The position numbers were made by a program, and so were the translations under genes. 64,000 bases of DNA from Buttiauxella agrestis ATCC 33320 (GTDB lineage: Bacteria; Pseudomonadota; Gammaproteobacteria; Enterobacterales; Enterobacteriaceae): positions 1 through 64,000 of the forward strand of contig NZ_JMPI01000036.1 in assembly GCF_000735355.1 (NCBI RefSeq), read 5' to 3'. Numbering within the stretch: the first letter of the stretch is position 1; every line of letters starts with the position of its first letter. Positions 30,233 to 64,000 of the stretch are shown one piece after another. Below the pieces are notes generated by a model that was not told the DNA's origin, did no database searches, and saw only the letters and a list, made by a program, of their open reading frames with translations.

Positions 30233-31623
30233 AGCTCTGGCGGCCTGGTATTACCGGCAAATTGTTCCTCGCGATTTTCTCGACCTGCCTGCTGGTGCTG
30301 GCAATCATGCACTGGGGTGTGCGGCTCAGTTTCGAACATGGGTTTATTGATTACATCAAGCGCGGCAATGAACAGCGGCTGGAAATGTTGAGCGACGCGC
30401 TGGGCGAACAGTACGAGCAGCACGGCAACTGGCAGTTTCTGCGTAATAACGATCGCTTTATGTTCAAGCTGCTGCGTTCATTCGAGCATGGCGATGTGGA
30501 AAACAACAACCTGCCGCCGCACGGCTGGCGCACCCAATTCTGGGTCGTCGATCAGGATTACAAAGTGCTGGTCGGCCCACGTGGCCCGGTGCCGACCGAT
30601 GGCATGCGCCGGGCGATTAACGTCAACGGGCGTGATGCGGGCTGGGTTGTCGCCTCCCCGGTCGAGCGCCTGACGCGCAACACGGATATTAATTTCGACC
30701 GCCAACAACGGCGCACCAGCTGGATAATCGTCGGCCTGGCGACGCTGCTTGCCGCGGCCGCCACCTTCCTGCTGGCGCGTGGCCTGCTGGCTCCGGTCAA
30801 ACGGCTGGTCGACGGCACGCACAAACTGGCCGCCGGGGACTTCTCCACTCGCGTTGACTCCACGAGCCAGGATGAACTCGGCAAACTGGCGCAGGACTTT
30901 AACCAACTCGCCAGCACGCTAGAGAAAAACCACAATATGCGCCGCGCCTATATGGCAGATATCTCCCATGAATTGCGCACCCCGCTGGCGATTTTACGTG
31001 GAGAGCTGGAGGCGATTCAGGATGGCGTACGCAAATTCACACCGGAATCTGTTGCATCTTTGCAGATGGAAGTGGCGACACTCACCAAACTGGTTGATGA
31101 CCTGCATCAGCTGTCGATGTCCGACGAAGGCGCGCTGGCCTATCAGAAACAGTCTTTGGATATCATCAACCTGCTGGAAATTGTCGCCGGGGCTTTCCGC
31201 GAACGTTTCAATTCGCGCGGTTTGAAAATCAGCCTGGCGCTGCCAGATAGCGTGACTATTTTCGGTGACAGCGACCGTTTAATGCAGTTATTCAATAACC
31301 TGCTGGAAAACAGCCTGCGTTACACCGATACAGGCGGCCAGTTGGTGATTTCCGGAGAACTGGTCAATCAGCGATTTATCATGCACTTTGCCGATAGCAC
31401 GCCGGGCGTGAGTGACGAGCAATTAACCATGCTGTTTGAGCGTTTTTATCGCGCTGAAGGTTCGCGCAACCGCGCCAGCGGCGGTTCTGGCCTCGGTTTG
31501 TCCATCTGCCAGAATATCGTTGCCGCCCATAACGGCAAGCTTTACGCCACGCATTCGCCTTTCGGCGGGGTTAGCATTACAGTAGAGTTACCGCTGGAGC
31601 CAGAATCGTTGAGACCCGTATGA
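30229..31623 (+). CDS. baeS: Envelope-stress sensor histidine kinase BaeS
   Basis: A 464-residue inner-membrane kinase with two membrane helices (about 10-33 and 165-185) around a periplasmic sensor region. A HAMP domain follows, then an H-box [12 protein letters not shown] (about residue 248) and ATP-binding N and G boxes ([23 protein letters not shown]). It phosphorylates BaeR in response to envelope damage and some toxic compounds. It overlaps mdtD and baeR by ATGA junctions. Confidence 0.96.
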
Positions 31624-33910: not shown

Positions 33911-34032
33911 GCTGAAAAACATAACCCATAAATGCTAGCTATATCCTGATTATTCAATTTGAAGCATCATGATATATACCAAGAACCACCTCATTGGCCT
34001 GTGGAATCTCCCTTCCGCAGGCCTTCTTTTTT
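33911..34032 (+). ncRNA. cyaR: Small regulatory RNA CyaR (RyeE), extended form
   Basis: The 5' part GCTGAAAAACATAACCCATA and the segment GAACCACCTC are near-identical to E. coli CyaR. The latter is the seed that pairs with ribosome sites of ompX, luxS, nadE and others through Hfq. The 3' end is a terminator stem (GGCCTGTGG/CCGCAGGCC) followed by TTCTTTTTT. The gene lies directly after trhP as in E. coli. About 35 extra bases (33941-33977) sit between the 5' part and the seed, making the RNA about 122 nt where E. coli's is 87. The insert folds on itself: 33940-33950 pairs with 33966-33976 with one mismatch. Confidence 0.82.
34005..34032 (+). other. P2-type attachment core (att) inside the cyaR terminator
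   Basis: The stretch beginning AATCTCCCTT and ending TTCTTTTTT matches the P2 attachment core, which in E. coli is the 3' end of CyaR. The middle bases differ (CCGCAGG where E. coli has ACACGGG). Phage ogr begins about 100 bases beyond, so this is the ogr-side junction; the int-side junction lies outside the window. Recombination here restores the sRNA terminator. Whether these bases are host- or phage-derived cannot be told from one junction. Confidence 0.7.
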
Positions 34033-34100
34033 GGTAGTAAACAATTGAAATAAAAGGATTTATTTCAATCAATGTCCACGCATTGACCACATCGATAAAA

Positions 34101-52511: not shown

Positions 52512-54284
52512 ATGACCATCATCACAGACACCTCCCTGACTCTTGACCCACGTCGACAGGCGTCACTGCTTTACTGGCAGGGGTTTTCCGTGCCGCAGAT
52601 TGCTGAAATGCTCGGCCAGAAACGCCCGACGGTGCAGAGCTGGAAACAGCGCGACGGCTGGGATGGCATTGCGCCCATCACCCGTGTGGAAAACAGTCTT
52701 GAAGCGCGATTAATTCAGCTCATCACCAAGACGAAAAAAGACGGCGGCGACTTCAAAGAAATCGACCTGTTAGGCCGACAGATTGAGCGGCTGGCGCGGG
52801 TGAACCGCTACAACCAGACCGGCAGTGAAGCGGATTTAAACCCCAACGTCGCCAACCGCAATAAGGGCGAGCGTAAGAAGCCGAAAAAGAACTTTTTCAG
52901 CGACGAGGCTATCGAAAAGCTGGAGGAGATTTTCTTTGCCGAATCCTTTGAATATCAGCTCGGCTGGCACCAGGCGGGACTGCAACACCGTATCCGCAAT
53001 ATCCTCAAATCCCGCCAGATTGGCGCAACCTTTTATTTCTCGCGCGAGTCACTGCTGCGCGCCCTGAAAACCGGCCATAACCAGATTTTCCTCTCGGCCA
53101 GTAAAACGCAGGCGTATGTGTTCCGCGAGTACATCATCCAGTTTGCCCGCCTTGTCGATGTTGACCTGACCGGTGACCCGATTGTCATCGGTAACAACGG
53201 GGCAAAACTGATTTTCCTCGGCACCAATTCCAACACCGCGCAGAGCCATAACGGTGACCTGCTGGTCGATGAGATTTTCTGGATACCCAACTTCCAGAAG
53301 CTGCGCAAAGTGGCATCGGGCATGGCTTCGCAACAGCACCTGCGCTCGACCTATTTCTCGACACCGTCCACGCTGGCGCATGGGGCTTACCCGTTCTGGT
53401 CAGGCGAGCTGTTTAACAAAGGGCGTGCGGATAAAAGCGAGTGCGTCGACCTGGATATCAGCCACGCGGCATTAAAGAACGGCATAGCCTGCGCGGATGG
53501 TCAGTGGCGGCAGATTGTCACCATTGAGGACGCACTCGCCGGGGGCTGCGACCTGTTTAATCTCGACACGCTGAAACGCGAAAACAGCGCCGATGATTTC
53601 CGCAATTTATTCATGTGTGAGTTTGTCGATGACAAAGCCTCGGTGTTTCCGTTCGAGGAGCTGCAACGCTGCATGGTCGACAGCATGGAAGCCTGGGCGG
53701 ATGACTGGCAGCCGTTCGCCACGCGTCCGTTTGGTTATCGCCCGGTGTGGATTGGTTACGACCCGTCACACACCGGTGACAGTGCCGGGTGTGTGGTGCT
53801 GGCTCCGCCGGTGGTAGCCGGTGGCAAGTTCCGCATTCTGGAGCGCCACCAGTGGAAGGGCATGGACTTTGCGACACAGGCCGAGTCCATCAAAAAACTG
53901 ACCGAAAAATACCACGTCGAGTACATCGGTATCGACGCGACCGGTATCGGCCAGGGGGTTTACCAGCTCGTCAGAGCGTTCTACCCGGCAGCGCGGGAGA
54001 TCCGCTACAGCCCCGAGGTGAAAACCGCGATGGTGCTCAAAGCCAAAGACACCATTGCGCGTGGTTGCCTGGAATATGACGTGAGTTACACCGACATCAC
54101 CGCCTCGTTTATGGCTATCCGCAAAACCATGACCGGCAGCGGTCGAAGTGCCACCTATGAAGCCAGCCGCAGCGAAGAAGCCAGCCACGCCGATGTCGCG
54201 TGGGCGACCATGCACGCGCTGTTAAATGAGCCACTCACCGCCGGAAGCGGTCAGGCATCCACCTCAATTCTGGAGTTCAACTGA
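52512..54284 (+). CDS. P: Terminase large subunit gpP
   Basis: A 590-residue packaging ATPase equal in length to P2 gpP. The N-terminal helix-turn-helix (about 18-45, FSVPQIAEMLGQKRPTVQSW) binds DNA. The ATPase core has SRQIGATFYF in the Walker A place and LLVDEIFWI as Walker B, and a nuclease-like C-terminus follows (WIGYDPSHTGDSAG). It overlaps Q by one base (TGATG) and reads toward cos. Confidence 0.96.
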   Translation: MTIITDTSLTLDPRRQASLLYWQGFSVPQIAEMLGQKRPTVQSWKQRDGWDGIAPITRVENSLEARLIQLITKTKKDGGDFKEIDLLGRQIERLARVNRYNQTGSEADLNPNVANRNKGERKKPKKNFFSDEAIEKLEEIFFAESFEYQLGWHQAGLQHRIRNILKSRQIGATFYFSRESLLRALKTGHNQIFLSASKTQAYVFREYIIQFARLVDVDLTGDPIVIGNNGAKLIFLGTNSNTAQSHNGDLLVDEIFWIPNFQKLRKVASGMASQQHLRSTYFSTPSTLAHGAYPFWSGELFNKGRADKSECVDLDISHAALKNGIACADGQWRQIVTIEDALAGGCDLFNLDTLKRENSADDFRNLFMCEFVDDKASVFPFEELQRCMVDSMEAWADDWQPFATRPFGYRPVWIGYDPSHTGDSAGCVVLAPPVVAGGKFRILERHQWKGMDFATQAESIKKLTEKYHVEYIGIDATGIGQGVYQLVRAFYPAAREIRYSPEVKTAMVLKAKDTIARGCLEYDVSYTDITASFMAIRKTMTGSGRSATYEASRSEEASHADVAWATMHALLNEPLTAGSGQASTSILEFN

Positions 54285-55318
54285 TGGCGAAGAAACGCAA
54301 ACATCACACAGCAAAAAACACATTCGCGGCACCGGCTGCGGCACCGCAAAAAATGGAAGCTTTCACCTTTGGTGAGCCGTCGCCGGTGCTCGACCGTCGT
54401 GACATTCTCGATTACACCGAGTGCGTCGGTAACGGCAAATGGTTTGAGCCACCGGTCAGTTTTACCGGGCTGGCGAAAACGCTGCGTGCCGCCGTTCACC
54501 ACAGCTCGCCGATTTACGTGAAGCGCAATATTCTCGCTTCGACCTTTATCCCGCACCCGTTGCTTTCACAGCAGGACTTCAGCCGCTTTGCGCTGGATTT
54601 TCTGGTGTTTGGCAATGCCTTTTTAGAAAAGCGCATGAGCGTCACCGGCAAGCTGTTAAGGCTCGAAACCTCACCGGCCAAATACACCCGCAAGGGCACC
54701 GGCGAGGATGCGTACTGGTTCGTGCAGTCGTTTGTCACACCGCATGAGTTCGCGCCCGGTTCCGTTTTCCATCTGCTGGAGCCGGATATTAATCAGGAGC
54801 TGTACGGCCTGCCGGAATATCTCAGCGCACTTAACTCTGCCTGGCTGAATGAATCGGCGACGCTGTTCCGGCGCAAGTATTACCAGAACGGTGCACATGC
54901 GGGTTACATCATGTATGTGACGGACGCCGCGCAGAGCAGCACCGACGTGGAAGCGCTGCGCGAGGCGATGCGCAGCTCGAAGGGATTAGGGAACTTCAAG
55001 AACCTGTTTTTCTACGCACCGAACGGCAAACCGGACGGGATTAAAATCGTCCCGCTCAGTGAGGTGGCGACCAAAGACGATTTCTTTAACATCAAGAAAG
55101 CCAGTGCCGAGGATTTAATGAGTGCGCACCGCGTACCACCTCAAATGATGGGTGTTATTCCCAATAATACCGGCGGGTTTGGTGACGTGGTCAAAGCTGC
55201 ACAGGTGTTTGTGCGTAACGAGCTGACGCCTTTGCAGGAGCGAATTAAAGAGGTGAATGAGTGGATTGGCGCCGAGGTGATCCGCTTTAAACCTTACGAG
55301 CTGACTACCGCCGAATAA
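54284..55318 (+). CDS. Q: Portal protein gpQ
   Basis: A 344-residue portal protein equal in length to P2 gpQ. Conserved segments are YTECVGNGKWFEPPVS, SGLAKTL-type loop FTGLAKTLRAAVHHSS and AHRVPPQMMGVIPNNTGGFGD. It forms the dodecameric ring through which DNA enters the head. In P2 it is the last gene before the left cos end; here about 5.3 kb of cargo separates them. Confidence 0.96.
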   Translation: MAKKRKHHTAKNTFAAPAAAPQKMEAFTFGEPSPVLDRRDILDYTECVGNGKWFEPPVSFTGLAKTLRAAVHHSSPIYVKRNILASTFIPHPLLSQQDFSRFALDFLVFGNAFLEKRMSVTGKLLRLETSPAKYTRKGTGEDAYWFVQSFVTPHEFAPGSVFHLLEPDINQELYGLPEYLSALNSAWLNESATLFRRKYYQNGAHAGYIMYVTDAAQSSTDVEALREAMRSSKGLGNFKNLFFYAPNGKPDGIKIVPLSEVATKDDFFNIKKASAEDLMSAHRVPPQMMGVIPNNTGGFGDVVKAAQVFVRNELTPLQERIKEVNEWIGAEVIRFKPYELTTAE

Positions 55319-55597: not shown

Positions 55598-56572
55598 TCA
55601 CTTCACGTCGACATCAACAGGCGCAGGCCCTCGAAAAGCTCTACGCCATTCGCTTGGACTGACGCTGAATCTCGCTTTGAAGCTCTGACGAAATGAGACT
55701 GGCGACTGAAAACCCACCATTTCGGATACACGTTCAATACTAATGTTTGTCGTTTCCAGTAACTCCTGACTTCTCTGAAGGCGTTCCGCGTTCAGCCAGT
55801 CGCCAAGCGTCGTTCCGGTTGCCCTGAAAAAATGACGCGTTAACGTTCGTCGACTCATGCTGACAAACCCGGCAAGTGAGTCGAGATCATGAGGCTTGTC
55901 CAGGTTACGGCGCAGATACTCTATCAGTTCATTCATTTTGCTATCCCGGGTCGATACCGGGACCGGGCGTTCAATAAACTGGGCCTGGCCACCTTCCCGG
56001 TAAGGTGGAACAACCATTCTTCTTGCCACCCGGTTAGCTATAGCAGAACCGTAATGGTCACGGATAATATTCAGGCAGCAATCAATACCGGCGGCGGTGC
56101 CCGCTGAGGTAATCAGACGTTCATCACTGGTATACAGCGAGTTGCTGTCCAGATGGACAGCAGGAAATCGTTCAATAAAGTCCTGTTCGTATTCCCAGTG
56201 TGTGGCAGCACGGTGCCCATCCAGTAAGCCGGAATAGGCAAGTACGTAAGCACCGAGACAAAGTCCCACCACTTCTGCACCACGCTGCCATGCTTTTATT
56301 AACCCATCCAGCAGGGCCTGAGATGGTTTTTCTTCCGGATGATTCCAGTAAGGCACGATAATAATGTCTGCGGTGTCCAGCAGCTCAAGTCCATGCTCCA
56401 CGTTGATGGACAGGCCCATATCAGACATAACAACGCCAGGGTTTTCAGCGCAGATTTCGACGCAGAATAAATCCGGTTGCGGCATAGACTGCCCGAAAAT
56501 AATACAAGGGACTGAAAAGTGAAATGGGCTAAATCCGGCCGTGGCAATCACGGCGACCGTCAGTGCAGACAT
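55598..56572 (-). CDS. GlxA-type transcriptional regulator (DJ-1/PfpI + AraC HTH)
   Basis: A 324-residue regulator with an N-terminal DJ-1/PfpI-like domain (about 1-190, with the nucleophile-elbow-like GLCLGAYVLAYSG) and a C-terminal double helix-turn-helix of AraC type (about 225-315). I start at MSALTVAVIA with GGTAAGG upstream; the ATG ten codons earlier lacks a site. Most of the 279 bases between it and Q hold no gene. Co-orientation with the hydrolase and transporter genes suggests it controls them; no effector is evident. Not a P2 core gene. Confidence 0.85.
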   Translation of the reverse strand: MSALTVAVIATAGFSPFHFSVPCIIFGQSMPQPDLFCVEICAENPGVVMSDMGLSINVEHGLELLDTADIIIVPYWNHPEEKPSQALLDGLIKAWQRGAEVVGLCLGAYVLAYSGLLDGHRAATHWEYEQDFIERFPAVHLDSNSLYTSDERLITSAGTAAGIDCCLNIIRDHYGSAIANRVARRMVVPPYREGGQAQFIERPVPVSTRDSKMNELIEYLRRNLDKPHDLDSLAGFVSMSRRTLTRHFFRATGTTLGDWLNAERLQRSQELLETTNISIERVSEMVGFQSPVSFRQSFKARFSVSPSEWRRAFRGPAPVDVDVK

Positions 56573-56700
56573 AACGTTAACCTTACCGTAAATGATAGCC
56601 ACCGGCTTACCGGCGGCTAAAACGCTTATTTTAACTGACCAAACAATAACAGGTGACCAGTAGTAATGGCATTCCTCATCAGGTCAGGTGGGATGGCCTG

Positions 56701-57480
56701 TCAGAAAGCCATTGTCTCGCCGTCTGCGGGAATCAGAACCTTATCTTCAATACCATGTTCAAGCGTGAACTCGCGAAGTTCCGCACGGGTAAGAAGGCAA
56801 TGATTAATCGATTCCATATGAGACGCCACGACGGTGGCATTGGGCAACATTTTCAGTGTGCGCAGTGTGTCCTCTTTGCCCATGATAATCGGACCGTAAA
56901 GGTCATTTACCGCATAACCGGTGTTCAGCACCACAATCTCCGGTTTGAAACGTTGCAGGTTTTTTGCGTAAGGCTTAACCCAGACAGTATCACCCGCGAT
57001 ATACAACGTTTTTTCATCATGGTGAGTGAAGACCAGCCCACATGCATCACCGAGTAGCTCACCCCACTGGGCATCAGCGTACAATTCGTTGCTGCCATGC
57101 TGGCCGTCGGTTTTGTAAATAGTCATGCCGTCTACGAAATGATTTTCCTCTTTCAGAACGCGAATGTTGAGAAAGCCCTGAGAGCGGAGAAGTGCCGCAT
57201 CTTTTTCATCCTGCGTGTAGATAAGCATGTCTTTGGGAATAGCCTGCTGGGCAGCCTCATCCCAGTGATCGGTATGGGTGTGAGTCAGGATAACGGCATC
57301 AACCGTCAGTAAATCCTTAACGGCCACAGGCAAGGCCACCATTGGATTACGCAGATGTGGGCGTGCACTTCCAGCAAAGCCGTCCCAGGCTTCTTTTTCG
57401 GCCAGCATAGGATCGATAAGGAATTTTTTACCGGCATATTCCAGTACCAGCGTGGCGTTGCGGATTTGCGTTAATTTCAT
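56701..57480 (-). CDS. Metallo-beta-lactamase-fold hydrolase (UlaG-like)
   Basis: A 259-residue MBL-fold enzyme with the metal motif HTHTDH at residues 67-72, and further ligands His128, Asp164 (YIAGDTVW) and His221. The fold suggests a cytoplasmic hydrolase of the UlaG/YtnP-type group; the substrate is unknown. It has no signal peptide. It is 128 bases upstream of the GlxA-type regulator and separated by a terminator from the other hydrolase, so it probably has its own promoter in 57481-57680. Confidence 0.85.
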   Translation of the reverse strand: MKLTQIRNATLVLEYAGKKFLIDPMLAEKEAWDGFAGSARPHLRNPMVALPVAVKDLLTVDAVILTHTHTDHWDEAAQQAIPKDMLIYTQDEKDAALLRSQGFLNIRVLKEENHFVDGMTIYKTDGQHGSNELYADAQWGELLGDACGLVFTHHDEKTLYIAGDTVWVKPYAKNLQRFKPEIVVLNTGYAVNDLYGPIIMGKEDTLRTLKMLPNATVVASHMESINHCLLTRAELREFTLEHGIEDKVLIPADGETMAF

Positions 57481-57684
57481 TTATTGCTCCAGTCATTAAT
57501 CAGATTTATTCACCCACCGTATTGGCTGTTGTGCTGCCGGGGGGATGCGAGTGGGCTTACTATAAAATGAGGAAGGGAGAGGTCGTGACATGCTCTCTGG
57601 TCATTAACCGATGAAATCAGGTCAATCGTAATGCGCAGGGTTTAGTGGTATTCCGTTACAACCCAATGACGGTTCAAATGAAAT

Positions 57685-57719
57685 AAAAAAGGGATGTGTT
57701 ATCTGAAAAAACACATCCC
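57685..57719 (-). terminator. Terminator after the isochorismatase-like gene
   Basis: A stem GGGATGTGTT/AACACATCCC (57691-57700 and 57710-57719) followed on the minus strand by a run of six T. It ends the MFS-hydrolase transcript. The rest of the 272-base gap to the MBL gene has no reading frame. Confidence 0.8.
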
Positions 57720-57752
57720 CTGGATAGGCCTGTACTTAACAAAATCAGTTGG

Positions 57753-58241
57753 TTAACTCACATTGCAGCGTGCACTCAGTCCGAACAGGGCAAGATCGCT
57801 CAGAGCTTTGGTGGGTGCAGCGCATGCTTGCGCAATGATATGCATCTTCATGCCCTGAGCTTGCGGGGAAAGCGCAGTATGTGTGACACAGTGCTGCGTC
57901 ATCATGCCGGTAAGATAGATATCAGTGATGCCATTCTCACGTAGCAACTGCTCAAGGCTGGTTTCGAAGAAGCTGTCTGCCTCTTTCTTGATAATCACGG
58001 GTGCATTTCCCAGTGCAGCAACAACATCCGGATGAATGTTCGCGCCTTTACTGTCAGGTTTGAAGAAAGGAGCTTCGGGCGTTGCAATATGCTGGATGCC
58101 GACGATAAGCCAACCTTCTTTGCGCGCTTTTTCAATCGCAGTCATTGCAGCTTTACAGGCTAGCTCAGGCTCCTCAAGCGGAAAGGCTCCGCCCGGGAAA
58201 TAATCATTCTGAATATCAATAACAATCAGAGCATTTTTCAT
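57753..58241 (-). CDS. Isochorismatase-family cysteine hydrolase
   Basis: A 162-residue cysteine hydrolase. The catalytic triad of the family is visible: Asp9 (VIDIQNDYF), Lys85 or Lys86 (IIKKEAD) and Cys118 (MTQHCVT). I start at MKNALIVIDIQ with AAGGA upstream. Relatives hydrolyse amides or vinyl ethers such as nicotinamide, ureidoacrylate or isochorismate; which one cannot be said. It lies 45 bases after the MFS gene and is probably cotranscribed with it. Confidence 0.85.
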   Translation of the reverse strand: MKNALIVIDIQNDYFPGGAFPLEEPELACKAAMTAIEKARKEGWLIVGIQHIATPEAPFFKPDSKGANIHPDVVAALGNAPVIIKKEADSFFETSLEQLLRENGITDIYLTGMMTQHCVTHTALSPQAQGMKMHIIAQACAAPTKALSDLALFGLSARCNVS

Positions 58242-58286
58242 GTTGAGTCCTTGGGGTTTATTGGTTGGAAGGTTCACAGAGTCAAT

Positions 58287-59495
58287 TTACTGCAGTGGTA
58301 AAGTGACCTCATTCTCAGCGTTATCCTGACGTTTTTTACGCACAGCGAGCCACAGTAGCGGCACCATAAGAAACAGGACCCAGGGTACTAAAAGGAGGTG
58401 CATGGTTTTCCAGCCATAAGCATTTAGCAGTGGGCCGGCACCCAGCGAACAAATCAGGCTGAAGATAAAGACGCTCATGTCATTGGTCGCCTGCGCAACC
58501 CCCTTTTCCTCTGTAGTGTAAGTTGTTGCCAATAAGCTGGTTCCGCCGACATAGAGAAAGTTCCAACCGATTCCCATCAATATTAATGCACCCGTAAACA
58601 CTCCCCAGGTGACGCCTGAAAACGCCAGAGCAAGGTAAGCAAGCATGAGAAGAATGCCCGCCAGCATAATGTTAATGACGCCAAATCGGTCGATCAGTTT
58701 TCCGGTGAAGAATGACGGTACAAACCGGCCCAGTATGTGGAGCTGTATCACGGTAGCAATTTGAGGCAAGTCAAAATCGTAGTGCTTCATCGCGATAGGT
58801 GTCGCGGTCAGGCCCAGTACCATAATTCCAAATCCTGACGCGCCGGAAAAAAGGGCAACAAGATAAGCGGGCTGAAAAACGACTTTTTTCCATGACCTCG
58901 CGATAACGTGTTCAGAAGCTTCCATTGACTGAACCGGTATCTGTAAACGTGATAATAGCAACAGACCCACCGAAGCCATTATTCCCATAAAGAGGAATGA
59001 CCCTGCATAGGAAACGCTAAAAAATGCGCTTCCGAAGCTTGCCAGAAACGGGCCAAGCAGAGCGGCAACGACACCTCCAGCCAATACCAGCGAAATAGCT
59101 TTAGTCCGGAATGCCGGGAGAACGACTTCACCGGCGGCAAAGCGATAAAACTGAGCGAACGCCTGATAAATCCCCAGAAAGAACATACCAATACACAGCA
59201 GAATGAAGGAATATTGGATCATTGCCGCCATGGAAATAATAGCCGACATAATTCCGCTCAGAGCACCGGTTATAAAGCCGGTTTTCCTGCCTATCCGGCT
59301 CATCCATAACGATGCAGGAAACATCACTAACACAGTGCCAAGACTTGCCATTGCGAGCGGTACGGTGCTCAGCGCGGGGCCGGGGGCAAGAAGCGCACCT
59401 GCAAGCCCACCGATAGTCATTATCAGTACCGCTATGGATTGAAAGATGGCCTGAGAACCTGCAAGTATCAGGACCTGTCGATGCATATTCCTCAT
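58287..59495 (-). CDS. MFS transporter
   Basis: A 402-residue major facilitator protein with about twelve membrane helices. The loop-2 motif is weak (LWMSRIGRKTGF near residue 65) and is echoed in the second half (GKLIDRFGVIN). It heads a two-gene transcript with the isochorismatase-like hydrolase, so it may import the hydrolase's substrate or export its product. No substrate can be assigned. Confidence 0.85.
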   Translation of the reverse strand: MRNMHRQVLILAGSQAIFQSIAVLIMTIGGLAGALLAPGPALSTVPLAMASLGTVLVMFPASLWMSRIGRKTGFITGALSGIMSAIISMAAMIQYSFILLCIGMFFLGIYQAFAQFYRFAAGEVVLPAFRTKAISLVLAGGVVAALLGPFLASFGSAFFSVSYAGSFLFMGIMASVGLLLLSRLQIPVQSMEASEHVIARSWKKVVFQPAYLVALFSGASGFGIMVLGLTATPIAMKHYDFDLPQIATVIQLHILGRFVPSFFTGKLIDRFGVINIMLAGILLMLAYLALAFSGVTWGVFTGALILMGIGWNFLYVGGTSLLATTYTTEEKGVAQATNDMSVFIFSLICSLGAGPLLNAYGWKTMHLLLVPWVLFLMVPLLWLAVRKKRQDNAENEVTLPLQ

Positions 59496-59937: not shown

Positions 59938-60422
59938 TTAACCAAAAACATGCATAGTTTCCAACTGCTCGGTTTTCATTTCATTGCAAGACGATAAAAA
60001 ATCATCCTTAAAACTTGGCGGGGGAGATCTTAGTTGCTGCACTGCCTCTTTATTTACTTCTAATTCCCGTAATTGTGCAATTGTACTTCTATGAATCGAT
60101 GAGAGAAAAAAATCGCCTGCGTTTGTTTTATGACTCTCCAGATAATTAGTTAGTATTTTAGACGATGCTTGAATTGCTTTTTCCTCAGAAAAACCCAAAG
60201 CAAAGCGAGAGTAGATGACATTATATTGGTACAGGCATGCTGCTTCAGCCATTTGTTTAGCTTGCTCCTTTGGGGAGGGCTGACTTGCCCACGACTGGGA
60301 ACTGATGATAAATATAAGCAGTAACAATCGTATTTTCATGTGTAGAATCCATATCCATTGGGAATACAATATGTAAACCTAACTAGCGTGGCTTTGCAAC
60401 ATCCGCTTTTGGCACAGAGCGG
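59824..60422. repeat. Paired palindromic repeats flanking the small secreted-protein gene
   Basis: Two 21-base copies in the same orientation, at 59824-59844 and 60402-60422, share TCCGCT, GGCAC and GAGCGG in order and differ at about four bases. Each can fold (CCGCT against AGCGG). They bracket the gene at 59938-60339, suggesting that gene moved as a unit between such repeats. Confidence 0.55.
59938..60339 (-). CDS. Small secreted protein of unknown function
   Basis: A 133-residue protein that I do not recognise. It has a clear signal peptide (MKIRLLLLIFIISSQSWA), so it is likely periplasmic. The mature part is mostly helical by composition and has two cysteines (Cys35 and Cys118) that could form a disulfide. 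I use the second in-frame ATG; the first adds ten residues before the signal. Small two-cysteine periplasmic proteins of this kind include toxin-immunity and inhibitor proteins, but nothing here proves that. It is AT-rich and flanked by repeats. Confidence 0.65.
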   Translation of the reverse strand: MKIRLLLLIFIISSQSWASQPSPKEQAKQMAEAACLYQYNVIYSRFALGFSEEKAIQASSKILTNYLESHKTNAGDFFLSSIHRSTIAQLRELEVNKEAVQQLRSPPPSFKDDFLSSCNEMKTEQLETMHVFG

Positions 60423-60494: not shown

Positions 60495-60681
60495 ACCCGC
60501 CGCATAATCCATGGTATCACCAACTCAGGTAGCGCATTTTCAACGCCCTCTTCTCGCTTACTCAGACATCCCTCACACCGCGTAACGCCACAACCACAAC
60601 GTGCATACCTGCGCATCGCTCAACACCTCAGCGAGGCGTTCATGTGGTGGAAAATAAAATAATTAAATGCTCCAGCGCGCA

Positions 60682-60700
60682 ATGCTATCCCCGCCACGCC
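60682..60700 (-). other. cos: Phage cos site (19-base cohesive end)
   Basis: The 19 bases ATGCTATCCCCGCCACGCC are the complement of the P2-family cohesive end. As I recall them, they match the 186 end at 18 of 19 positions and the P2 end at 16 of 19. In P2 cos lies between Q and the old/tin region, as here between Q-side cargo and the RloC-like gene. The flanking region 60500-60800 has several short inverted repeats that may be terminase-binding sites. No gene lies in 60340-61015 besides this. Confidence 0.8.
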
Positions 60701-61015
60701 TGCCCACTTCATGGGTCGGTTTTAATGCATTTGCATGATCACTCGTGATCCGCGCCAACTCAGGCGGCGCATGACCAGAACAGGCGAGCTAGGCACATGC
60801 AAAAAAATGCACCTAATGCATGGTGTACATAACAAAAATTACTGTTTGTAAGCATGATATTTTTGCAAAAGTGATTTAGGCCGTAATTCCCTTGATTAAA
60901 TTGTTTTTTTCTTGAAAAAACCGAAATGGTAGAGTAGATCTTTATAATAGAACCAACTATATTCGCTCCGAGCATTTATTTACTTAATAGCTTATTAAAA
61001 AGATGAGATGTTAAA

Positions 61016-63232
61016 ATGGAACTTAGACTAAAGAACATAACCAGCTATCAAAAAGACACTGTTACAACTATAAATCTAAGTAAAAAAATCAACATATTAT
61101 ATGGTCATAATGGTAGCGGAAAATCCACCATATCTAATTTTTTTTATAATACAGCGCATGCCGATTTTCAGGACTGCGAATGCTCATCATTAGAAAATTT
61201 CCGCCCAGTTGTTTACAATTCAAAATTTATTGAGGATAATTTTTATAATACTAAAGAACAAAAAGGTGTATTTACATTAAGTAAAGCAAATGCAGATATT
61301 GAAAAAGAGATAGCAGAAAAAGAGATTCTGAAAGAATCCCTAACTAATCAATATAGAGAAAAAATAAATTCCGCAAAAAATTTAACCGAAGAGAAAAATA
61401 AAGAAGAATTAAAAATCCAAGATTCCATTTGGACTAAAACCGAATCAACTCGGTTATCTGATTTAAAATTATTGATGAGAGGGAGTTTAGGGAGTAAAAG
61501 AGATTTCTTTACCCAAACAGCTAAAATACCAAGACTTCCGAATATAAACCTTAGCTTGCTAGCGAAAGAATATAGTGAACTACTGAAACATAAAAATAAT
61601 GAACTCCTTCTAATAACTCCTTTCTTAAACTACACCTTTTCAGCAGATGATATACATGTTTTAGTAACGCCAATCATAGACTCAAGTAACAGTTATCTCT
61701 CGGAAGCAATCAAAAAAATTCAAAACCTCGATTGGGTCAAACGAGGGAAAGAACTTTACCTAAATGGAACCACATGCCCTTTCTGCCAAGAAAACACGAT
61801 AACACCTATATTTCACAAGGCTATTGAATCCATATTTGATGAAAGCTATGAACAAAAAGTGCGTCAAATATCTTCCATAAAATCAGCTTATGAAGCTGCA
61901 ACTAAAAACATTTACAGTAGATTGCAGCAAGAAATTTCAGCATGTGAAATAATACCTTTTGAAGAAAAAGAAAAAAGTACAGCGCACCTGAAAATTTTGG
62001 AAGCCGAAGCAAATAAAAACTTAGCTCTAATTTCAGAAAAAATAAAAAACCCGTCATCTGTAGTCACACTACAATGGGATAACTCAACTGCATCAAAACT
62101 TCAGGAAAGCATAACCGAATATAACAAAAAGATAAATGAAATAAATATAAAAGTCAGAACATTTAAAACAAGTGAAAATTCTATACGTGGAAGGATATGG
62201 GGTGGTATTAGAGACTTGTGTAATCCAGAATTTGAAACACTCTCCGAGCTTGAAAAATCACACAACGAAAATTATAAAAAAATAAAATTAGAGACAGATG
62301 AGATAACGAAACAAGGGAAAAAGAACAATGAGGAAATAAAAGCACTTCGAGATCAAGTGTCTAATATAGATTTAACAATAGACTCAATTAATCTAAGGCT
62401 TAAGAATCTTGGGATACACGGTTTCAACATAACCAAACACAATGAATCTGAAGACAAGTATATTATATCTCGCACTGACAAACCTGAAAATGAAAATGTA
62501 TATAGATCTCTTAGCGAAGGTGAAAAAACACTAATAACCTTCCTCTATTTCCTAGAGTGCTGCAAAGGAAAATTAAATAAAGACGATGTAGATATGCGAG
62601 ACACTTTCATCATCATTGATGATCCAATTTCCAGCCTCTCCCAGAATTATATTTATGATATCGCATCTATTATTCACTTTGAAATAATAAAAAGTGACTC
62701 AGCAAAAAAAATATTATTACTTACTCACAACCTCTATTTTTTCCATGAGCTTATTAAGCTTGCTCCAAAAAGCAAAGAAGATAAAACATTCAAGCGAGAT
62801 TACTATCTTGGAAGAGTAACAAAGAATCAATACAGCATAATATCTGACATTGAAAAAAACAGTATCCAAAACGAGTACCAGTCATTATGGCAAATTTTAA
62901 AAGATGCAAAAGCAGGGAAAGTCAACAGAATAATAATACCCAATATAATGAGAAATATTTTAGAGTATTATTTTGCATTTGTTCATAGAACAGATGCGCT
63001 ACAATCAGAGTTAATTAAACTCGCAAATGATGATGGCAACAATGATTTTAGAGCATTTTATAGATACATAAATCGAGGTTCTCATTCAGATGCTGTTAAT
63101 ATCACCGACATGGGAGATATAGCACCAGAAAAATATATGGAGCAATTGCGAATAATATTTACTATGACTGGAGATGAAAAGCATTATATAAAAATGATGG
63201 ATGAGGAAGAAGAGGAAGTTGCTACCGCTTAG
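61016..63232 (+). CDS. RloC-like ABC-ATPase anticodon nuclease (probable anti-phage protein)
   Basis: A 738-residue protein with all marks of RloC. It has Walker A GHNGSGKST (30-38), long coiled coils (about 95-135 and 270-460), a CPFC zinc-hook motif at the apex (254-257), and signature LSEGEKT (499-505). Walker B with D-loop is FIIIDDPISSLSQN (531-544), and the switch histidine is His571. The C-terminal domain has Arg646-x3-Glu650 and His690, matching in spacing the R-E-H triad of PrrC/RloC nucleases that cut tRNA anticodon loops. It is AT-rich, stands alone without restriction genes, and reads opposite to A in the tin/old region of the phage. Confidence 0.85.
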   Translation: MELRLKNITSYQKDTVTTINLSKKINILYGHNGSGKSTISNFFYNTAHADFQDCECSSLENFRPVVYNSKFIEDNFYNTKEQKGVFTLSKANADIEKEIAEKEILKESLTNQYREKINSAKNLTEEKNKEELKIQDSIWTKTESTRLSDLKLLMRGSLGSKRDFFTQTAKIPRLPNINLSLLAKEYSELLKHKNNELLLITPFLNYTFSADDIHVLVTPIIDSSNSYLSEAIKKIQNLDWVKRGKELYLNGTTCPFCQENTITPIFHKAIESIFDESYEQKVRQISSIKSAYEAATKNIYSRLQQEISACEIIPFEEKEKSTAHLKILEAEANKNLALISEKIKNPSSVVTLQWDNSTASKLQESITEYNKKINEINIKVRTFKTSENSIRGRIWGGIRDLCNPEFETLSELEKSHNENYKKIKLETDEITKQGKKNNEEIKALRDQVSNIDLTIDSINLRLKNLGIHGFNITKHNESEDKYIISRTDKPENENVYRSLSEGEKTLITFLYFLECCKGKLNKDDVDMRDTFIIIDDPISSLSQNYIYDIASIIHFEIIKSDSAKKILLLTHNLYFFHELIKLAPKSKEDKTFKRDYYLGRVTKNQYSIISDIEKNSIQNEYQSLWQILKDAKAGKVNRIIIPNIMRNILEYYFAFVHRTDALQSELIKLANDDGNNDFRAFYRYINRGSHSDAVNITDMGDIAPEKYMEQLRIIFTMTGDEKHYIKMMDEEEEEVATA

Positions 63233-63260
63233 GCCGCATATCATCGATTTGGGTAAGATC

Positions 63261-63280
63261 GACGGTGTCTACACACCGTC
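63261..63280. terminator. Hairpin between the RloC-like gene and A
   Basis: A perfect 8-base stem GACGGTGT/ACACCGTC with a CTAC loop, 29 bases after the RloC-like stop. It lacks a clear T-run, so termination is uncertain. The remaining 180 bases to A hold another short inverted repeat (GCTATT/AATAGC near 63357-63375) and no gene. Confidence 0.4.
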
Positions 63281-63459
63281 TCCCAACGTCCAAAACGGTA
63301 GCGGGAGTACTGACGTACGTTCACTAGCTTTAACATGAGGTTATCTCCATGCAAGCGCTATTGTTGCCAATAGCAGCCTTTACACCCTTTGTATAAAGCT
63401 AATACCAAGAGTAATGCAATGTTGATATCCCAAGCGGTAGCGCGGGCATTCTAGGTCAG

Positions 63460-64000
63460 TTATTTAGAAATATCAAAGCTAAAATTATACCCCGGCCACT
63501 TATCAGCTGCTGGGTAAGAGAATTTTGTATCTCCATATATGACTGCGGCCCCACGCGTAAGCGCCTCAAGCTCCCAGCGCTGCGGGTTGATTCCCTGCCT
63601 CGAAAGCTCAAAGCAGATCTGTGGTATGCGTTCGCGTTCCTGCCGGGTTAATCGTGCTGACGGCGCGTGATTACTGACGTTTGTGGCGTCATGGTTTTGC
63701 TGTCGTGTTCTCGCCCTAGCTTCTTGCACTTTCAGAGCCTCCCGGAGCGCCACTTGAACATCGCTATCGCTCCAGTTCACCTCTCCGCTTTCGAGTAGAT
63801 TTAACACCACTGCGGTGTGCTCAGAAGGTGTAGGTGTCGATTCTGCACTGGTGTTAAAAACACTTAACCCACAGTTATTGACAGGACTCCGAGTCGCGGC
63901 GGAGCCGCTCTTTAAGGTCAAAAGATTAAGGTCAACGTCAACGGCTTTAGCAACGATGCGCCATTGAGTTGTACGCGTAACATGAACATTGTCAGAACCA
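63460..64000 (-). CDS. A: Replication initiation endonuclease gpA, C-terminal part (cut by window edge)
   Basis: The frame is open through position 64000, and the visible 179 codons are only the C-terminus. They start with a VHVTRTTQWRIV segment that matches the C-terminal region of P2 gpA, so the TTG at 63921 is not a real start. gpA (761 aa in P2) nicks the origin through tyrosines and starts rolling-circle replication; its catalytic motifs lie outside the window. The end (RGAAVIYGDTKFSYPAADKW) is complete. Confidence 0.85.
   Translation of the reverse strand, partial: GSDNVHVTRTTQWRIVAKAVDVDLNLLTLKSGSAATRSPVNNCGLSVFNTSAESTPTPSEHTAVVLNLLESGEVNWSDSDVQVALREALKVQEARARTRQQNHDATNVSNHAPSARLTRQERERIPQICFELSRQGINPQRWELEALTRGAAVIYGDTKFSYPAADKWPGYNFSFDISK

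Follow-up and report, generated by a model that had tools for sequence, protein, structure and literature searches.

The anticodon nuclease RloC was defined by Davidov and Kaufmann (PMC2610378) as a protein of 658-897 aa in which an ABC ATPase is split by a coiled coil with a CX2C motif, together with the triad R-x3-E-x36-52-H, whereby the His is often preceded by a Ser. The smaller PrrC proteins comprise 341-416 aa and are linked to type Ic restriction-modification (R-M) loci (PMC2610378, PMC3874168). Anticodon loops are the site of cleavage by PrrC and by the two RloC proteins that have been characterised (PMC2610378, PMC3874168), and tRNA cleavage is lost in RloC triad mutants (PMC2610378). 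A mark of RloC cleavage is that the wobble nucleotide is excised. Linear DNA together with the ATPase turns the RloC nuclease on, and a break-inducing drug activates Acinetobacter baylyi RloC in vivo, even in R-M mutants (PMC3874168). In the literature searched, RloC was found to be studied in vitro and in A. baylyi, and no phage-exclusion test was found; a recent survey enters RloC as not tested (PMC12322248).

In P2-like phages, the slot that holds old and tin has been described as a defence hotspot, for which 169 systems were curated; apart from old-tin, eight more systems taken from it were tested, and three of them protected against phages (PMC9122126). Four of 21 independently selected systems also lie in it (PMC9519451). 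Anantharaman et al. (2013; PMC3710099) presented APECO1_4465 as the prototype of prophage ABC-HEPN proteins, placed this group beside RloC and not inside it, and in the same passages proposed an R-M-independent phage exclusion for it. The idea of a prophage-borne member of such a kind is therefore not new and was noticed in 2013. PMC3710099 was the only paper naming APECO1_4465 that was found in the open-access literature searched, and no experiments on the clade of relatives in the P2 slot were found there.

The gene and its P2-like prophage

The window, that is the whole stretch of 64,000 nucleotides analysed here, comprises positions 1-64,000 of contig NZ_JMPI01000036.1 from Buttiauxella agrestis ATCC 33320 (GCF_000735355.1). 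PHROG matches identified prophage genes for tail, tape measure, sheath, tail fibre, major head, scaffold, terminase and portal. The gene of interest and the features that frame it are the following:

34012-34033, no strand: 22-bp direct repeat, probable att core, the second copy lying beyond the window at contig base 69237
34126: transcriptional regulator of the prophage, by PHROG match
54284-55318, plus strand: P2 portal gene Q, by PHROG match
60682-60700, minus strand: cos-like site, with a match in one of 100 shuffles
61016-63232, plus strand: gene of a probable RloC-family ABC ATPase and putative anticodon nuclease, 738 aa, ATG start, intact ORF
63460-64000, minus strand: 3' end of P2 gene A, which encodes the replication endonuclease, the remainder lying beyond the window

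The two 22-bp repeats probably bound a prophage of about 35.2 kb, whose integrase gene lies beyond the window's end on the gene A side. A complete gene A ORF was read in the locus L011 (3461-5842; Phage_GPA, 2.3e-107). As for the cos-like site, the linear genome of phage P2_4E6b (31128 bases) has its end at the corresponding point, its base 31127 being aligned with window base 60702, and the sequence around the site aligns in all 11 P2-slot relatives compared. The RloC-like gene is the sole gene between cos and gene A. Flanked by portal gene Q, the cos-like site and gene A, it occupies the tin/old position to which an earlier note on this DNA, made from the sequence alone, had assigned it. The same note called the gene solitary, which holds on the cos-gene A side and fails on the portal side, where about 5.3 kb of metabolic cargo precede cos in an interval that measures only a few hundred bases in 11 relatives. 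The old and tin genes of P2 share the slot with the window gene and encode different proteins with different effectors; Old is also an ATPase nuclease and acts on DNA.

The only ORF between cos and the RloC-like gene (60760-60975, minus strand, 71 aa) gave no Pfam or PHROG match at E 1. A promoter scan of 60640-63480 found 10 promoters, which is not above the mean of 11.6 in shuffled sequences, and SOS regulation was rejected, a LexA-like box with at most two mismatches being absent from 60701-61016. A toxin-antitoxin pair was rejected, since an ORF of at least 60 aa is absent between the RloC-like gene and gene A. In sliding windows the GC content of the gene is 0.29-0.34, compared to about 0.50-0.60 over 50-55 kb, as expected from its description as an AT-rich gene among GC-rich phage genes. 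The 738-aa product matches Pfam AAA_13 (residues 14-715, 1e-107) and is spanned as a whole by PHROG 2801, a family of unassigned function. Its best PADLOC model is PDC-S06 (residues 2-731, 1.3e-250), a candidate label without description in the library, and the PADLOC PrrC model matches with 1.8e-13, the best stretch being residues 480-728. With the AAA_13, PDC-S06 and PrrC matches, the HMM comparison that had been proposed for this protein came out in favour of an RloC/PrrC-like ATPase.

Comparison with RloC and PrrC

Conservation was read from an alignment of 101 sequences, consisting of the window protein and homologues from 100 of 105 loci with a homologue. L005, L011, L019 and L032, which are identical to the window, and L027, which is identical to L026, were left out, and L031, with 120 residues, was too short for the ORF limit and is missing from both alignment and tree. 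The genome scan took the best 80 of 287 relatives, so that the following figures on conservation apply to the nearer part of the family:

61103-61129, plus strand: Walker A, residues 30-38; G30, N32, G33 and K36 in 99/101, the two gaps being fragments
61775-61786, plus strand: CPFC zinc-hook motif, residues 254-257; C254 and C257 in 99/101, the two gaps being fragments
62510-62530, plus strand: ABC signature LSEGEKT, residues 499-505; LSEGE in 101/101
62606-62635, plus strand: Walker B and D-loop, residues 531-540; D535, D536, P537, S539 and S540 in 101/101
62726-62728, plus strand: H-loop or switch histidine H571; 101/101
62849-63199, plus strand: C-terminal helical domain, putative nuclease, residues 612-728; from the profile alignment with PrrC and a predicted model
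62951-62965, plus strand: triad part R646-x3-E650; R in 101/101, E in 100/101 (one Asp)
63083-63085, plus strand: triad H690, preceded by S689; 99/101

All of these motifs lie at the residues where the earlier note had placed them, and the triad, on whose conservation among homologues its proposal had been made to depend, is kept apart from one Asp and two missing His. Measured against the RloC definition, the 738 aa of the protein fall within the published size range, and the triad reads R646-x3-E650-x39-H690 with S689 before the His, whereby the spacing of 39 lies inside x36-52. The CPFC hook falls between Walker A and the ABC signature, and the predicted model contains long helices at residues 90-141, 276-309, 315-344 and 403-446, as expected for an ATPase that is split by a coiled coil. 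Among the 99 aligned sequences with the full triad, the E-H spacing ranges from 33 to 40, and seven of the 99 lie below the published 36. A relative from Campylobacter sp. US33a (L081; not C. jejuni) is 36% identical over residues 3-728 and is located between hsdS and hsdR in the order hsdM-hsdS-gene-hsdR, the neighbours being confirmed by Pfam HsdM_N, Methylase_S and HSDR_N; its best PADLOC model is likewise PDC-S06. Judged by the published sequence criteria and by this Campylobacter relative, the 738-aa protein is very probably a member of the RloC family, in line with the identity first suggested for it. It has the size, the split ABC ATPase, the CxxC hook and the R-x3-E...S-H triad in common with RloC from Geobacillus kaustophilus, A. 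baylyi and Campylobacter, whereas its gene is prophage-borne and without R-M linkage, and a tRNA substrate and a DNA-end trigger are what we infer for it by analogy.

Some observations from the alignment stand beside this comparison. The Campylobacter locus (L081, 2862-11129) is a clean example of the original restriction-linked arrangement, from which the name rloC derives. H690 is missing in L017 and L018, both AAA_13 proteins of Firmicute phages, which keep R646 and have no His at the aligned triad position; L017 carries the annotation RloC, and automatic RloC labels may overreach. A C-terminal H-x3-M element (H723 and M727) is invariant in 101/101 sequences, also where the triad His is missing, and is absent from those passages of PMC2610378 that define RloC.

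The model of the full-length protein (pLDDT 82.3, pTM 0.48) is most like Rad50 and SMC heads with low TM-scores, the best PDB match being Rad50 (E 8.7e-7, TM 0.20). Such a low TM-score is to be expected for a head with long coils. Rad50/SbcC was rejected, since the protein has a C-terminal domain of its own and a Mre11/SbcD-type nuclease partner is not located beside the gene. With PrrC, the window protein has the triad, the C-terminal domain and the ABC motifs in common, whereas PrrC is without coiled coil and hook and the 738-aa protein contains an insert. PrrC proper was rejected on size, hook and R-M linkage, the neighbours here being cos/portal cargo and gene A.

For the C-terminal domain, ORFs could be used from 19 of the 20 PrrC loci tried. 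Two of the loci, L116 and L117, were verified by a match to the PrrC model and a preceding HsdS-like gene, and the other PrrC loci come from the profile search. An hhalign comparison of the domain with the 19 PrrC C-terminal domains yielded a score of 36.4 and a probability of 75%, with R/E and S-H in register. The reversed control reached 0.2%, and none of 200 column shuffles was as good (maximum 23.7). The PrrC HMM gave no match reaching E 1 against the last 139 residues alone. The predicted model of the domain is helical with a mean pLDDT of 78.8 and low values around the His loop. Foldseek with this model alone against the PDB gave a best E of 1.6, none of the 83 matches being at E 0.001 or better, and sequence searches of the PDB returned no PrrC or RloC chain (0 matches, or none among 60 of 72 matches listed). 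The HEPN motif Rx4-6H is present as R683-x6-H690, with R683 in 98/101 sequences. Overall, the C-terminal domain appears as a putative PrrC/RloC-type nuclease whose triad aligns with that of PrrC, and by this analogy it is probably a tRNA anticodon nuclease. The case that would have spoken against the earlier note, a C-terminal domain that aligns with no PrrC/RloC nuclease, did not occur, the profile-profile alignment having the triad in register. The fold search returned no significant match and did not confirm a HEPN-like fold.

Relatives and history

Among 5426 complete E. coli genomes, 115 contain a match, which covers at least 80% of the gene in 72 of them. Eight E. coli loci were read, and in six of these (L001, L002, L003, L148 from APEC O1, L149 and L151) the homologue is the only gene annotated in the interval from portal to gene A of a P2-like prophage. 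The two weakest E. coli matches read are without the P2 slot, L150 having genes for a cytosine methyltransferase and for type II restriction nearby and L152 lying on a plasmid. Each of the 13 IMG/VR loci adjoins one or more P2 genes from among portal, terminase and gene A. In a phage collection nine of 50,697 records match the protein, with Enterobacter phage ENT4 as the one P2-like case, and in a plasmid collection 218 of 72,556 records match, all with less than 60% identity. Of these plasmid records, 154 are predicted conjugative, and Klebsiella (44), Enterobacter (43) and Citrobacter (28) are represented. Closer to the source, six of 40 genomes around and including the window's own have a match, two of them near full length (the own genome and G039). 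Among the E. coli copies from MS 198-1 (H136) and APEC 16-1068 (H149), one has an IS5-type element inside the match and the other is annotated in pieces.

Over all 738 residues, and without a gap, the APEC O1 protein WP_000423308.1 (APECO1_RS04465) has 63% identity with the window protein, and it represents another allele; its gene is found at 926 kb, likewise between gene A and portal of a P2-like prophage. Deduced from strain, prophage and protein type, it is almost certainly APECO1_4465. What is new here is that the APECO1_4465 group agrees with the RloC definition including the zinc hook and that it is almost wholly P2-associated.

This association is seen most clearly among the near relatives: 14 of the 15 loci with at least 58% identity to the window adjoin P2 genes, 13 of those 14 having both portal and gene A, and the fifteenth (L033) lies on a Pantoea chromosome where P2 neighbours are absent. 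Full-length P2-slot relatives are 58-68% identical to the window protein, whereas aligned relatives from outside its own clade are only about 30-43% identical. A quick tree was built from 98 rows after the fragments L028, L075 and L086 had been dropped, with SH-aLRT as the support measure and without bootstrap. In this tree, the window, 13 P2-flanked loci and L033 form one clade with a support of 100, outside which the three enterobacterial plasmid copies included are placed. These sequence relationships would fit a single entry into the P2 slot with later divergence to 58-68% among full-length copies, as seen in a limited sampling of the best 80 of 287 relatives. An exit from the slot or a second entry is also possible, because the tree leaves the order of L003, L033 and the other clade members unsettled.

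Proposed function and further cargo

We consider it probable that the RloC-family gene is a single-gene phage-exclusion cargo of the P2-like prophage, encoding an anticodon nuclease that is switched on by DNA ends. Beyond family membership, tRNA cleavage, trigger and defence are inferred. As in characterised RloC, the protein would be silent in healthy cells. Superinfection would then expose free double-stranded DNA ends, be it from breakdown of host DNA or on injected or replicating linear phage DNA, which the ATPase and hook part would sense and thereby turn the nuclease on. The nuclease would cut one or a few tRNAs in their anticodon loop, so that translation stops and the infection is aborted; a linked restriction system would not be needed. 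Within this proposal, exclusion of other phages as the benefit is held with fair confidence, and the DNA-end trigger, taken over by analogy from RloC, with slightly less. The stand-alone phage-carried clade in E. coli (the 72 genomes with at least 80% of the gene) offers a simple laboratory model for the trigger, the tRNA target and a possible phage exclusion by RloC without a restriction system.

As for the trigger, it is rather unlikely, though the best of the alternatives, that the protein responds to the failure of a restriction system in trans, as a PrrC-like guard of type I R-M, and not to DNA ends. Type I R-M-like loci, recognised by SWI2/SNF2 and HsdS-like matches, are present elsewhere in the genome to which the window belongs, on the contigs C11, C13 and C47, because of which a partner in trans is possible, and some relatives lie inside hsd loci, as in Campylobacter (L081). 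Against this, a type I R-M-like match occurs in the examined flank of none of the 14 P2-slot loci and of 11 of 100 loci overall, counted with six query proteins, in uneven flanks and for type I only. A mobile prophage could presumably not rely on a given host R-M system, and A. baylyi RloC was activated in R-M mutants. R-M linkage of RloC is called rare in the passages concerned (PMC2610378, PMC3874168), and the founding paper counts 8 of 72 at a type I or III R-M locus (PMC2610378). The earlier note's view of RloC as a frequent neighbour of type I restriction genes is thus not borne out, whereas it was right that no R-M gene lies beside the window gene, whose neighbours are cos/portal cargo and gene A. 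It is plausible that the window gene acts alone.

Compared to the anticodon nuclease proposed here, an RloC-family ATPase whose C-terminal nuclease cuts other RNA (mRNA, rRNA or phage RNA), still as an abortive defence, is unlikely. In its favour are the mRNA-cutting RNase LS and LsoA, which are HEPN nucleases with the same active-site plan (PMC3710099), and the identity of only about 30-43% to aligned relatives outside the own clade; on the other side, anticodon loops are what PrrC and the two characterised RloC proteins cut, and the triad is in register with PrrC. Less probable still is a role in DNA-damage response or prophage maintenance (persistence, stabilisation) in place of phage exclusion. 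A. baylyi RloC responds to nalidixic acid without infection, and persistence and prophage-thwarting roles are discussed by the authors (PMC3874168). The position in the tin/old slot speaks against it, phage protection having been seen there for old-tin and for three of eight other systems tested (PMC9122126), and so does a distant Lactococcus plasmid copy that adjoins a type II R-M pair. The slot position alone does not prove defence either, because only three of the eight further systems tested there protected. A degenerate AAA_13 ATPase without current function is very improbable, since the window copy is intact with every motif and 58-68% identical to full-length P2-slot relatives, even if some E. 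coli copies (H136, H149) are interrupted or annotated in pieces.

Returning to the phage-exclusion cargo switched on by DNA ends, a tentative and rather doubtful extension is that a single entry of one RloC lineage into the P2 cos-gene A slot was followed by its retention as a guard independent of R-M, since P2 makes few free ends. P2 packages from closed circles. If true, T4-, T7-, T5- and lambda-type invaders would expose many DNA ends and P2 few of its own, and it would be the prophage life cycle, not a silencing partner, that makes a DNA-end-triggered suicide nuclease tolerable.

The cargo on the portal side of cos is of another type. The region 55598-59495, between portal and cos, encodes a GlxA/AraC-type regulator, a metallo-beta-lactamase-fold hydrolase, an isochorismatase-fold hydrolase and an MFS transporter, and this cluster is an unusual non-defence cargo. 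Between it and cos lies a 143-aa ORF (59938-60369, minus strand) with a start that by eye resembles a signal peptide and a best family match of only E 0.07. Clusters like 55598-59495 are carried by plasmids, the best one being from Pantoea agglomerans with 92.5% over 75% of the query.
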